Shown: positions 1,969-10,226 of the stretch, one piece after another | Layout of the letters: every line of letters starts with the position of its first letter | Numbering within the stretch: position 1 is the stretch's first letter | Assembly: GCA_012735215.1 (NCBI GenBank) | Contig: JAAYHX010000022.1 | Location: forward strand, 1-35,871 | Source of the DNA: Tissierellia bacterium | Lineage (GTDB): Bacteria; Bacillota; Clostridia; Tissierellales; Tepidimicrobiaceae | Reading direction: 5' to 3' | DNA: 35,871 bases | Notes under the pieces: generated by a model | Database searches by the model: none | What the model was told of the DNA's origin: nothing | What the model saw: only the letters and a program-made list of their open reading frames with translations | Made by a program: the position numbers and the translations under genes

Positions 1969-1990
1969 ATTTTCACCTCTTCTAAAAATT

Positions 1991-2126
1991 TTTGCTGCTG
2001 AACTACTTTTGTCCCTGTAATCACTTACAAGATTTGTGTAGTTCTTAGGATGGCAGCTCACCCCATGGCATCCGCCGAAAACTCGATAAACCATGTCCTC
2101 GTCAGCTCTCATGAGCTCTGGCGCTT
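1991..2126 (-). ncRNA. glmS ribozyme (glucosamine-6-phosphate-activated riboswitch)
   Basis: Reading the minus strand from 2125, the leader shows the conserved glmS ribozyme core: AGCGCC (2125-2120, cleavage expected between A2125 and G2124), a short P2 hairpin, GACGAGG, GGTTTATCGA, then TTCGGCGGATGCC. A P4 helix forms between GAACTAC and GTAGTTC (left arm near 2040, right arm 2000-2006), enclosing a small TGTAA/TTACA hairpin. It ends about 25 bases before the glmS start. In the known mechanism, glucosamine-6-phosphate acts as the catalytic cofactor, the RNA cleaves itself and glmS mRNA is degraded. The 3' boundary is approximate. Confidence 0.93.
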
Positions 2127-2130
2127 TAAT

Positions 2131-2162
2131 GTCATAATATATACCACCTAATATATGGTGGT
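2131..2162 (-). promoter_or_regulatory. Probable glmS promoter region with inverted repeat
   Basis: Just upstream of the ribozyme, minus-strand ACCACC and GGTGGT arms (2157-2162 and 2143-2148) flank an 8-base AT spacer. They are followed by a TATATT-like -10 near 2135-2140. No good -35 is visible. The repeat may be an operator or simply an mRNA or promoter structure. The remaining 180 bases to the hom stop show no convincing gene or terminator. Confidence 0.35.
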
Positions 2163-5950: not shown

Positions 5951-6025
5951 ATTTTTTGCCTTTATTCAAATCTTTTAGTAAAATATTATCATTCCATAAA
6001 TATTAATAGCCTGGAGGTTATGCCA

Positions 6026-7414
6026 ATGGCAAGTATTAAAGAAATGTTTGCTCCAAAAGATCTGACTGTGGGGCCCCCTTGGAAACGGATTGTTGAATTT
6101 TCAATACCCTTATTAATTGGCAATGTTGCACAGCAACTTTATAATACAGCTGATTCAATTATCGTAGGAAGGTATGTAGGAGATAATGCTCTTGCTGCTG
6201 TTGGTAGCGCATCTCCTATATTGAATCTTCTGCTGGTTTTGTTTGTTGGGATTTCAGTGGGTGCTAGTATTATGGTATCCCAGTATTATGGTGCTAGGGA
6301 TAGGAAAAAACTTTCTCATACTATTGGTGTGTGTATGTCCCTTACAGCTATCGCTTCCCTAATCATTATGATTATTGGACCCCTAGTTACCCGACCTATG
6401 CTTAAGTTTCTCAATACACCAGATAGTATTATGGACTGGAGTGCAGGATATCTAATTATATTCTTCTTAGGCATAGCAGGATTTGCTTATTACAATATTC
6501 TATCAGGTGTCCTAAGAGGACTAGGTGATTCAATATCAGCCCTTGTCTTCTTGCTGATTTCTACAGCTCTAAATGTAGTACTTGATATAATATTTGTTAC
6601 CAAGTATGACATGGGAGTCCCTGGTGTAGCACTAGCAACCATTATTGCACAAGGAATCTCAGCAGTACTATGTGTTCTTAAGCTAATCAGTATGAAGGAT
6701 ACCTTTGATATAAGCTTGCAGTTTTTAAAATTACACAAAGAGTATGCCTATGGATTAATAAAACTTGGACTACCCTCAGGCTTAACCCAAGCCATCTTAT
6801 CTCTAGCTATGATTGCAGTTCAATCTCTTACTAATACCTTTGGAGAACTGGTCATTGCATGTAATGTTATAGTTATGCGGGTAGATGGTTTTGCCATGAT
6901 GCCAAACTTTTCCTTTGGAAATGCAATGACTACCTATTCTGGTCAAAATATTGGAGCCAATAAGATGGACAGGGTAGTAAAGGGAAGCAAACAGGGTACT
7001 ATGATTGCTGTTGGCGTTTCTGCTACAATAACTGTTATTATCTTGGTCTTTGGAAGATATCTTATGGAAATCTTTACAGATACAAAGGAATTGGTTGATT
7101 TAAGTATGCACATGATGAGGATCCTTGCAGTAGGTTATGTTGCCATGGCTGTAACCCAGAGCCTATCTGGAGTTATGCGTGGAGCTGGGGATACCATGAC
7201 ACCTATGTGGATTTCCCTTTTTACCACAGTACTTCTTCGTATACCAATTGCCTATGGACTGGCCTATCTTACAAGAAGTGAAGCATATCCTAATGGAAGA
7301 CCAGAGTCAGTATTTATCTCACTGTTAACAGCCTGGACAATGGGAGCCATTATTACAACCATTTTCTATAAAAGGGGCAAATGGCGCAATAAGTCTCTTG
7401 TTAACAAGCAATAA
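6026..7414 (+). CDS. MATE family multidrug/cation antiporter
   Basis: An integral membrane exporter of about 462 aa with the two-fold repeat of six helices typical of MATE pumps. It probably uses Na+ or H+ influx to expel drugs or metabolites. Visible family features are PWKRIVEFSIPLLIGN, QLYNTADSIIVGRYVGD and VGASIMVSQYYGA in the first half, and SGQNIGANKMDRV and SGVMRGAGDTMTPM in the second. The ATG at 6026 lies 8 bases after GGAGG and is preferred over the ATG at 6020, which is only 2 bases away. It stands alone behind a promoter with a palindrome. Substrate unknown. A second, distinct MATE gene is at 19003-20364. Confidence 0.93.
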   Translation: MASIKEMFAPKDLTVGPPWKRIVEFSIPLLIGNVAQQLYNTADSIIVGRYVGDNALAAVGSASPILNLLLVLFVGISVGASIMVSQYYGARDRKKLSHTIGVCMSLTAIASLIIMIIGPLVTRPMLKFLNTPDSIMDWSAGYLIIFFLGIAGFAYYNILSGVLRGLGDSISALVFLLISTALNVVLDIIFVTKYDMGVPGVALATIIAQGISAVLCVLKLISMKDTFDISLQFLKLHKEYAYGLIKLGLPSGLTQAILSLAMIAVQSLTNTFGELVIACNVIVMRVDGFAMMPNFSFGNAMTTYSGQNIGANKMDRVVKGSKQGTMIAVGVSATITVIILVFGRYLMEIFTDTKELVDLSMHMMRILAVGYVAMAVTQSLSGVMRGAGDTMTPMWISLFTTVLLRIPIAYGLAYLTRSEAYPNGRPESVFISLLTAWTMGAIITTIFYKRGKWRNKSLVNKQ

Positions 7415-7450: not shown

Positions 7451-7597
7451 CTATCTTAAGAAGAAATATAGGATTAAGGCTGAGGCAATTATTAAAGCAA
7501 GGGGTATTATTCTCCTATTGCCTTTGTTTTCAGCAGAACCTGTTTCCCCTATCTCCTTTATACGCCTTTTCTTATTGTTTCCTCCACAACAGCTCAT
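7451..7597 (-). CDS. Small cysteine/membrane protein, 48 aa, unrecognised
   Basis: A short ORF reading MSCCGGNNKKRRIKEIGE at its start. It has a vicinal Cys pair followed by Gly-Gly, a basic stretch, a polar linker, and a C-terminal hydrophobic segment IIPLALIIASALILYFFLR that would span the membrane once. GAGGTG lies 5 bases before the ATG, an extended -10 (TGTTATAAT) lies 60 bases upstream, and a terminator follows directly. The gene is thus complete with its own signals. Function unknown. The Cys-Cys-Gly-Gly N terminus could bind a metal or be modified, but that is speculation. Confidence 0.75.
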   Translation of the reverse strand: MSCCGGNNKKRRIKEIGETGSAENKGNRRIIPLALIIASALILYFFLR

Positions 7598-7656
7598 TTA
7601 AACACCTCATTTAAGTATAGTCAAATGCATTCCATAAAGTTACAATATTTATAAAT

Positions 7657-7681
7657 ATTATAACATAAAGCAGACTGCTTT
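7657..7681 (-). promoter_or_regulatory. Promoter and palindrome upstream of the 48-aa gene
   Basis: The minus strand has the extended -10 TGTTATAAT (TATAAT at 7657-7662). Immediately upstream is the 15-base palindrome AAAGCAG-A-CTGCTTT (7667-7681), in the -35/-10 spacer. The rest of the 268-base gap up to the ABC exporter shows only AT-rich sequence and the exporter's ribosome binding site AGGAG. Confidence 0.45.
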
Positions 7682-7865: not shown

Positions 7866-10226
7866 ATGCTTCAACTAAAAGATATCACAAAAAGCTACAC
7901 CACTGGTGAATTTAAGCAAGTAGCTCTAAATAATGTAAGCATAAATTTCAGAAAGAGTGAGTTTGTGGCTATTTTAGGACCTAGTGGTTCTGGAAAGACC
8001 ACCCTTTTAAACATAATTGGAGGTCTTGATCGCTACGATAACGGGGACTTGATAGTTAATGGCAAATCTACAAAGAACTTTAAGGATTCAGAATGGGATG
8101 CTTATCGTAACAACAGTATAGGATTTGTCTTTCAAAGCTATAATCTAATACCCCACTTAAATATACTGGATAATGTGGAGATGGGCATGACCTTAAGTGG
8201 CGTTAGCTCATCTATAAGGCATGAAAAGGCCTTTGAAGTATTGGAAAAGGTAGGCCTTAAGGATCACATACACAAAAAACCCAACCAGCTTTCTGGAGGT
8301 CAGATGCAAAGGGTGGCCATTGCCAGAGCATTAGCAAATGATCCAGACATAATTCTAGCAGATGAACCTACAGGAGCCTTAGATACCACAACAAGTATAC
8401 AGATTATGGACCTGATTAAGGAAATATCTCATGATAAACTGGTAATAATGGTAACTCACAATCCATCCTTGGCAGAAAAATATGCAGATAGGATAATAAG
8501 GATTGAAGACGGGATAATAGTTGATGATACAAACCCTTACCAAGATATTAAAGAAGAAAGTAGTTATAAGCTTAAGAGAACCAGCATGAGCTTTTTCACT
8601 GCATTGAAACTTTCAGGCAAAAATATATTGACTAAGAAGTTTAGAACAACACTAACGGCCTTTGCTTCATCTATTGGGATAATAGGTATAGCCTTGATCC
8701 TTAGCCTGTCTTCAGGCTTTCAAATTAAGATTGACGAGTTTCAAAGAGATGCTCTTTCAGAATTTCCTATTATCATATCACAAACTGCAGCTCAAATGGA
8801 TAAGGAAACCATGGAAAAAATGAGGGGGGAAATGAAGTCTCTTCATGAGAGCAAGGATGAGTATCCAAAGGAAGAAAAAGTCTATTTATATGACCCAGAA
8901 GAGTTTTCAGTGGTTCATACTAATAAGTTTTCAGATGAATATATGGACCATATAAATAATATAAGTCCTGAAATCTGCAGCAGGATTGGCTACTTAAGAA
9001 TGGTTGGTATGAACCTTCTTAGGCAAACAGATGAAGGGACTGTCCCTGTTAGTATTTCAACAGGTTTTAGTGGCAGCTCCCAAGCTGCACCAACTAATAT
9101 AACTAGCACCAGCGGCTTGGGGATGACTACCTATCCCGACAATATTGATAATTCAGAGGAAAGCTATCTGGAAGAAAACTATGATCTATTAGCTGGTGGC
9201 TATCCATCAGATGAAACAGATTTGGTTCTAGTGGTAGATAGAAAAAATAGGATAAACTTAAACATATTGAAGAATCTAGGCTTTGACACTGAGAATGTGG
9301 AAGATATAGATTTTGATGAAATAATAGGAACTAAATTTAAACTAATACCCAATGATGAATATTATACTAAGACAAACTTTGGTACATTCATTCCCAGAAA
9401 TGATTATGAAGACATGTATGATTCTGAAGATGCCATAACCCTTAGAATTTCTGGAATTGTTAGGCTTAAGAAAGGCATAGACATAGACCTATTAGGAAAT
9501 GGGATTGTATATAGCGATAAGCTGCTCCAAAGAGTAATTGATATAGAAAAGGACTCAGAAATTGTAAAGGCTCAGAAGGAATCTAACTTCAATGTCTTGA
9601 CCATGGAAGAATTAGATGATGAAGGCAAGAAAAACCTACTTTCATACTTAGGAGCAGACTCCATACCATACATGATATTCTTATATCCTAGTGATTTTGA
9701 CTCAAAGGAGCTGGTAAAGGAATATCTGGATGAGTACAATAGTGGAAAAGCGGAGGAAGATACCATAGTATATACGGACCTGGCAAGTACCATTACTGAA
9801 ATGACTGGCAGCATAATGAATGCAATTACACTGGTACTAATAGCCTTTTCATCAATTTCCCTTATTGTATCCTTGATAATGATTGGTATAATAACCTACA
9901 TTTCTGTACTTGAACGAACAAAGGAAATTGGAGTATTAAGGGCCCTTGGAGCAAGGAAAAAGGATATTACCAGAGTATTTAATGCTGAGACCTTTATAAT
10001 AGGCACCTTCTCTGGCCTTTTAGGTATTGGAATTGCTTATGCTCTAACCTTCCCTGTAAACAGGATAATTGAAAACTTGACAGAGCTTGAAAATGTAGCT
10101 CAATTAAACCCACTCCATGCAATTATGCTAATTGTGATTAGTGTTATACTAACCCTAATCGGAGGGGCAATACCTGCCAAGATGGCTGCTAATAAGGATC
10201 CTGTTGTAGCATTGAGAAGTGAGTAG
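7866..10226 (+). CDS. ABC transporter, fused ATPase-FtsX/MacB-type permease
   Basis: A 786-aa fusion. The N-terminal LolD/MacB-like ATPase (about 1-225) has Walker A GPSGSGKTT, signature LSGGQMQRV and Walker B IILADEPTGAL with a following H-loop VTHN. The permease half has one helix at about 260-285 (ASSIGIIGIALILSLSSGF), a large extracellular domain of some 370 residues, and three C-terminal helices. The ERTKEIGVLRALGARKKDI motif identifies the FtsX family. MacB-type transporters act as mechanotransmission machines exporting peptides, lipids or antibiotics, or signalling. The substrate cannot be read from sequence. No accessory membrane-fusion protein, sensor kinase or response regulator is adjacent. 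AGGAGATGATTAA precedes the ATG. Confidence 0.92.
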   Translation: MLQLKDITKSYTTGEFKQVALNNVSINFRKSEFVAILGPSGSGKTTLLNIIGGLDRYDNGDLIVNGKSTKNFKDSEWDAYRNNSIGFVFQSYNLIPHLNILDNVEMGMTLSGVSSSIRHEKAFEVLEKVGLKDHIHKKPNQLSGGQMQRVAIARALANDPDIILADEPTGALDTTTSIQIMDLIKEISHDKLVIMVTHNPSLAEKYADRIIRIEDGIIVDDTNPYQDIKEESSYKLKRTSMSFFTALKLSGKNILTKKFRTTLTAFASSIGIIGIALILSLSSGFQIKIDEFQRDALSEFPIIISQTAAQMDKETMEKMRGEMKSLHESKDEYPKEEKVYLYDPEEFSVVHTNKFSDEYMDHINNISPEICSRIGYLRMVGMNLLRQTDEGTVPVSISTGFSGSSQAAPTNITSTSGLGMTTYPDNIDNSEESYLEENYDLLAGGYPSDETDLVLVVDRKNRINLNILKNLGFDTENVEDIDFDEIIGTKFKLIPNDEYYTKTNFGTFIPRNDYEDMYDSEDAITLRISGIVRLKKGIDIDLLGNGIVYSDKLLQRVIDIEKDSEIVKAQKESNFNVLTMEELDDEGKKNLLSYLGADSIPYMIFLYPSDFDSKELVKEYLDEYNSGKAEEDTIVYTDLASTITEMTGSIMNAITLVLIAFSSISLIVSLIMIGIITYISVLERTKEIGVLRALGARKKDITRVFNAETFIIGTFSGLLGIGIAYALTFPVNRIIENLTELENVAQLNPLHAIMLIVISVILTLIGGAIPAKMAANKDPVVALRSE

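Follow-up and report, generated by a model that had tools for sequence, protein, structure and literature searches.

A 48-residue CC-GG protein of a Tissierellia bacterium and its microprotein relatives, most of them encoded in bacterial copper-handling gene clusters

An overlooked 48-residue protein of a Tissierellia bacterium is very likely the product of a real gene, and the genes of its relatives lie mostly in bacterial copper-handling gene clusters, the present copy being outside such clusters. The gene is found on a contig of 35,871 nucleotides (JAAYHX010000022.1, assembly GCA_012735215.1), which was analysed over its full length and is referred to as the window. From the setting of these relatives, the product probably binds metal as a very small protein anchored in the membrane. 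The best explanation, to which we give a probability of about 0.55, would be a single-pass membrane protein with a Cys-Cys site for a soft metal, with Cu(I) as the likeliest candidate, acting as a tethered sponge or carrier. Genes of such small size are readily missed, and the family goes unnamed in Pfam and NCBIfam. If confirmed, it would provide a small extra part for the copper-handling operons of anaerobes, a two-cysteine peptide for studying the retention of copper at the membrane, and a motif with which similar parts could be sought in other phyla.

The gene and its local signals

The preliminary description of this locus had proposed a short open reading frame (ORF) under the usual length limit with a CCGG start, a basic stretch and one C-terminal helix. 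This layout is supported, and the AlphaFold model places the helix at residues 30-47, with the tail disordered (mean pLDDT 69.1, pTM 0.32). The minus-strand coordinates likewise confirmed the extended -10 element, the well-placed GAGGTG and the T-run terminator around the ORF (Table 1); a sigma-70 scan for two hexamers did not return its promoter, indicative of the absence of a good -35. The ORF stands alone, both flanking genes being on the opposite strand, and the palindromic stem of its terminator would on paper serve the convergent MATE gene too. Matches to the divergent ABC gene in other genomes of the taxonomic family covered the ATPase part only, and no shared synteny was seen there. 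A glmS ribozyme was also identified in the window.

Table 1. Positions of the features discussed, in the window or in the locus named.
Feature	Position	Strand	Remarks
glmS ribozyme	window 1990-2136	-	Rfam RF00234, 106.6 bits
MATE family transporter	6020..7414	+	convergent neighbour; Pfam PF01554
Terminator stem-loop	7428..7447	.	minus-strand stem then T run GAATTTTTTA
Stop codon of 48-aa ORF	7453-7451	-	
48-aa ORF (48 codons)	7451..7597	-	MSCCGG start, basic linker, C-terminal helix (residues 30-47); translation of minus-strand 7597-7451, MSCCGGNNKKRRIKEIGETGSAENKGNRRIIPLALIIASALILYFFLR
GAGGTG, Shine-Dalgarno site	7603..7608	-	5 bases upstream of ATG
Extended -10 element TGTTATAAT	7657..7665	-	good -35 absent
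15-bp perfect palindrome AAAGCAGTCTGCTTT / AAAGCAGNCTGCTTT	7667..7681 (7681-7667 on minus strand)	.	abuts extended -10; possible local operator
786-aa ABC ATPase plus FtsX-like permease	7866..10226	+	divergent neighbour; Pfam
HMA-DsbD proteins	L022 3250-5043, L023 4905-6704, L024 2719-4509, L076 3080-4876		weak cupredoxin match in one scanned
103-aa CCGG-His/YHS proteins	L042 7535-7846, L043 6592-6903		
Helix-first microproteins in copper clusters	L083, L087, L089, L091-L095, L101, L104, L107, L108, L110, L111		
Feo-like and copper genes, own genome, contig 8	L123 1679-7311		labels partly by eye
Short ORFs with repeated reading	L121 83-578		CRISPR-type look, by eye
75-aa repeat ORF (G555)	L029 1461-1688		not a family member

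The palindrome upstream of the gene was found as described, with 15 bases, but it does not overlap the -10 element as had been claimed: a single base separates it from the TG of that element, and it occupies the spacer/-35 zone. The sequence TGNTATAAT occurs 13 times in the window versus a mean of 4.35 across 20 shuffles. The window holds 12 perfect palindromes with arms of at least 7, compared with a mean of 8.3 across 10 shuffles, so the palindrome taken alone carries little weight as evidence. Among the 12, only two have at least 6 G/C, this one included. A genome-wide search allowing up to 2 mismatches returned 9 places (1 exact, 1 with one mismatch) versus 2 for the reversed control. As the genome contains a single exact copy, a regulon is unlikely; the regulated expression suggested in the preliminary description would depend on this one palindrome, which may at most be a local operator.

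A family of M-x-CC-GG microproteins

We defined the M-x-CC-GG one-helix microprotein family by an N-terminal M-x(1-2)-CC-[GS]-[GSE], a length of 37-58 residues and one C-terminal helix, a definition that the window protein satisfies. The family comprises 25 distinct genes (16 from the genomes sampled by rank, 8 further from named genomes, and the window gene) coding for 37-58 residues, in which the N-terminal M-x-CC-GG is followed by a variable linker (with His in 18/25) and the helix. Tyr within the last five residues together with a terminal K/R occurs in 17/25 members, including the window protein, which ends YFFLR. A profile built from the other 24 members recovered the window protein at 33.8 bits (E 4.9e-8, Z=20000); CC-GG having been the search key, the independent part of this match lies in length, helix, C-terminal end and context.

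Relatives were recovered by pattern and profile. Single-sequence searches with the window protein identified none in the genus sample (this genome only), in the family sample (1 real match among 20 genomes, the window's own) or in the genome contigs, where 591 pattern stretches yielded no confirmed relative; a match in G019 (32%, E 0.97) was rejected. Among plasmids, no relative was detected by DNA search or by tblastn with the LH_M71 relative. The pattern ATG-NNN-CC-GG matched 19 of the 249 genomes of the order; in six of these genomes besides that of the window it starts a small ORF that encodes a helix at the C-terminus, and the remaining 12/19 lacked such an ORF and were rejected. A profile search of the order matched 166/249 genomes at E up to 0.5, of which nine were kept, at E 9.6e-5 or better; matches at 0.00108 or worse were dropped, those listed mostly lacking the N-terminus and some having stops. 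This search added G245, G183 and a second G248 gene, giving 9/249 genomes and 10 genes for the order, with the window among them.

The class sample (391 genomes) contributed members in G302, G327, G328 and G421, the last with two intact copies; a third copy in G421 is interrupted by an in-frame stop and was excluded from the count. Pattern candidates in 8/11 genomes of this sample were rejected, as were two of 7 candidates (G468 and G531) lying inside long frames. In the family to which G421 belongs, 3/6 genomes carry a member. The phylum sample (398 genomes) added G739 and G848, with two of 5 candidates (G964 and G832) rejected for internal stops. A search of named genomes with MGCCGGGH returned 31 contigs, 10 with the motif first (two repeating G220 and G248), 14 with the helix first and 7 with neither; named carriers of the family include Soehngenia, Sporosalibacterium, Natronincola, Anaerovirgula, Anaerosolibacter, Clostridium mobile and Candidatus Petromonas. 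A 75-residue ORF of repeated MGCCGGMMM-like units in G555 is not a family member.

The relatives evolve under protein-level constraint. In six pairs of relatives, none including the window gene, dN/dS was 0.26, 0.14, 0.19, 0.15, 0.37 and 0.30 (two of the six dS values exceeding 1), and differences at codon positions 1, 2 and 3 numbered 41, 22 and 67. The preliminary description had looked to homologues with a Cys-Cys-Gly-Gly start and to substitutions that respect the reading frame; the family supplies both, with 24 other CC-G-start members and none of the six pairs reaching a dN/dS of 0.4. The family is new to the libraries checked: no Pfam or NCBIfam cut-off was reached by any of the 17/25 members scanned (12 plus 5 further), the window protein matched no Pfam family at E up to 10, and no description of the motif or family in bacteria was found among the matches listed in the open-access literature.

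Genomic neighbourhoods

Copper and heavy-metal neighbourhoods are common in the family and form no part of its sequence definition. Neighbouring families identified by Pfam include Lgt, PEMT/ICMT, YNCE propeller, RseC, HMA P-type ATPase, HMA-DsbD, DUF2933 and YHS, while the CcdA-like, CsoR-like, CopZ, Feo and ArsM-like labels were given by eye without a family scan. Using phmmer, metal-cluster markers, chosen from the members' own surroundings, were detected near 21/25 members versus 1/20 control regions (a weak YNCE hit), the controls being placed at round coordinates of our choosing on the same contigs in 10 genomes, with loci of approximately 6 to 20 kb. Strict copper/heavy-metal markers (HMA proteins, CPC/CPH ATPases, CsoR-like, DUF2933-like and YHS genes) were present near 18/25 members versus 0/20 control regions (Fisher 3.0e-7, a value that overstates certainty because relatives are not independent, four members being in one genus and others forming close pairs). 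Clostridium mobile had been removed from the strict count (19 to 18), its ATPase having no CPx motif. In G328 the DUF2933 label was assigned by phmmer, the Pfam score of 16.0 bits falling short of the 21-bit cut-off, and likeness extended it to G302 and G421b; G302 and G328 carry YHS too, and the strict count without G421b is 17/25. The later members (G302, G328, G421b, G739 and G848) have a marker in 5/5 and a strict marker in 4/5 cases, the neighbours of G739 and G848 having been seen before the marker list was fixed; the G739 marker is a CcdA-like gene only. One locus labelled as a PVC metagenome-assembled genome (MAG), L082, is similar to that of the Clostridiaceae LH_M71 and is possibly misbinned.

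Linkage is often tight, a same-strand marker gene lying no more than 41 bp away in 11/25 members. Neighbouring ATPases are either CPC proteins with HMA domains or CPH proteins with a His-rich start, both copper types. In four genomes of one genus, HMA-DsbD proteins of approximately 600 residues directly follow a 37-40-residue CCGG gene. Two loci (L042 and L043) encode, in the same clusters as the microprotein, 103-residue proteins composed of an N-terminal helix, a CCGG-His-rich stretch and a YHS domain. Members without any marker are the window gene, G245, G248b, which adjoins an ArsM-like gene (labelled by eye), and a Clostridiaceae MAG. No copper/heavy-metal marker was detected in the 20 kb locus of the window gene (L028), and the copA-copZ locus of the same genome is on another contig, away from the ORF. 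In this genome, Feo-like genes lie back to back with HMA copper-type ATPase, CopZ-like and CsoR-like genes. At L121, the repeated reading 'YIRLTRIMGIERG' in short ORFs has the look of a CRISPR-type repeat array.

Proposed function and alternatives

We infer the topology, the metal binding, the identity of the metal and the retention of this role by the window copy as follows. The N-terminus is probably cytosolic, with the single C-terminal helix anchoring the protein in the membrane. On the inner side of the membrane, the vicinal cysteines of M-x-CC-GG would serve as a binding site for a soft metal, Cu(I) being the likeliest candidate, and the protein could then supply exporters or redox partners as a tethered metal sponge or carrier. 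Many relatives have His in the linker, their genes lying beside P1B copper ATPase, HMA-DsbD, DUF2933, YHS, CsoR-like and Lgt/ICMT-like genes. Placement of CC-GG in the cytosol follows from the positive-inside rule and the excess of K/R before the helix: K+R are more numerous before than after it in 19/25 members, tied in 5 and fewer in 1, and the window protein has 8 before and 1 after. In the stretch before the helix, positive charges are often balanced by acidic residues, which leaves this topology with weak support in the His-rich members.

The window copy is atypical, having no His, a basic linker and no metal genes nearby, and G245 is similar. Its two cysteines are the only ones, and another clear ligand is absent. 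Linker His is lacking in 7/25 members, five of which are still in metal contexts, so its absence is compatible with a metal role for the window copy. As the window copy has neither His nor a metal neighbourhood, its role may nevertheless differ, or have shifted, from that of its relatives. A less likely alternative is that it forms with G245 a side branch gone from metal clusters, now regulating or stabilising a hypothetical membrane partner and using CC-GG for contact with a thiol, an Fe-S centre or a metal other than copper. Neither copy is in a metal cluster or has linker His, each has 7-8 K/R before the helix, and they share with G239 a K-[ED]-[WI]-G stretch; however, G239, which also has no His, resides in a DUF2933/ICMT/Lgt cluster, and the neighbours of the window gene are on the opposite strand.

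The tethered Cu(I) site is also preferred to a lytic membrane peptide, whether a small hydrophobic toxin from a type I toxin-antitoxin pair or one of another kind. The size, single helix, basic charges and strong local promoter and terminator would fit a toxin, but the conserved CC-GG start, the close same-strand linkage of relatives to metal genes and the lack of any Rfam match at the ORF at gathering thresholds make it very improbable. With regard to coding status, the codon score of the ORF (0.274 bits per codon) was reached by 0/411 antisense 48-codon pieces, 35/137 real coding pieces score at or below it, and the opposing 67-residue ORF scores 0.062. An untranslated chance ORF is the least credible reading, since, although ATG ORFs of at least 48 codons arose in 597/5000 dinucleotide shuffles of the 451-base intergenic stretch and only 1/20 family genomes has the gene, ORFs of this length with a Shine-Dalgarno-like site arose in only 19/5000, and codon use is coding-like and the leave-out profile recovers the protein.

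Helix-first proteins with the same motif

In 14/31 MGCCGGGH contigs the order is reversed: a helix is followed by basic and Gly residues, MGCCGGGH and a charged tail. Sources of the helix-first GGMGCCGGGH are mostly Deltaproteobacteria MAGs, with Chloroflexi and related MAGs. Strict markers lie near 14/14 of these contigs, a set picked by the eight-residue pattern alone, with no control regions of its own and with L104 and L110 from one genome. The three proteins scanned matched no Pfam or NCBIfam model. Both forms have the CCGG motif, one helix and copper-cluster neighbours in common, whereas the opposite order of helix and motif makes it likely that they are not homologous end to end. We tentatively suggest, at less than even odds, that CC-GG microproteins may constitute a class of minimal Cu(I) carriers tethered to the membrane, which would hold cytosolic copper beside P1B ATPases and DsbD-like proteins. 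The class would occur in two mirror-image layouts, with the motif leading in Bacillota and the helix leading in Desulfobacterota/Chloroflexota-type bacteria, and the window copy would be a stand-alone version.

Comparison with known systems

FeoB-associated Cys-rich membrane proteins are short, Cys-bearing and encoded beside a metal transporter, with a single helix first and a Cys-rich tail last; their Pfam model is not matched by the window protein. Copper clusters of Alteromonas combine a copper ATPase, a cupredoxin, DUF2933 and an isoprenylcysteine methyltransferase (PMC8478169), resembling the surroundings of many members, in which DUF2933 and ICMT-like genes accompany copper ATPases; they belong to a different phylum, and the excerpted text of that paper names no CC-GG microprotein. 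Plant type-2 metallothioneins, which are metal-binding proteins, start with MSCCGGN (PMC5192482), as does the window protein. According to the same excerpted source, CsMTL2 carries 11 cysteines, found in its two Cys-rich ends, compared with two cysteines and a membrane helix in the window protein, and we assume the likeness to be convergence. CupA of Streptococcus pneumoniae is described as a Cu(I) chaperone bound to the membrane, encoded in a copper operon and handing copper on to CopA (PMC5646241). It has a cupredoxin fold and an N-terminal leader, whereas the window protein has a two-Cys tail and a C-terminal helix and matched neither a cupredoxin nor an HMA domain (as in HMA/CopZ copper chaperones) in Pfam. 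The likeness between CupA and the window family would be in the proposed action, that of a Cu(I) binder held at the membrane.
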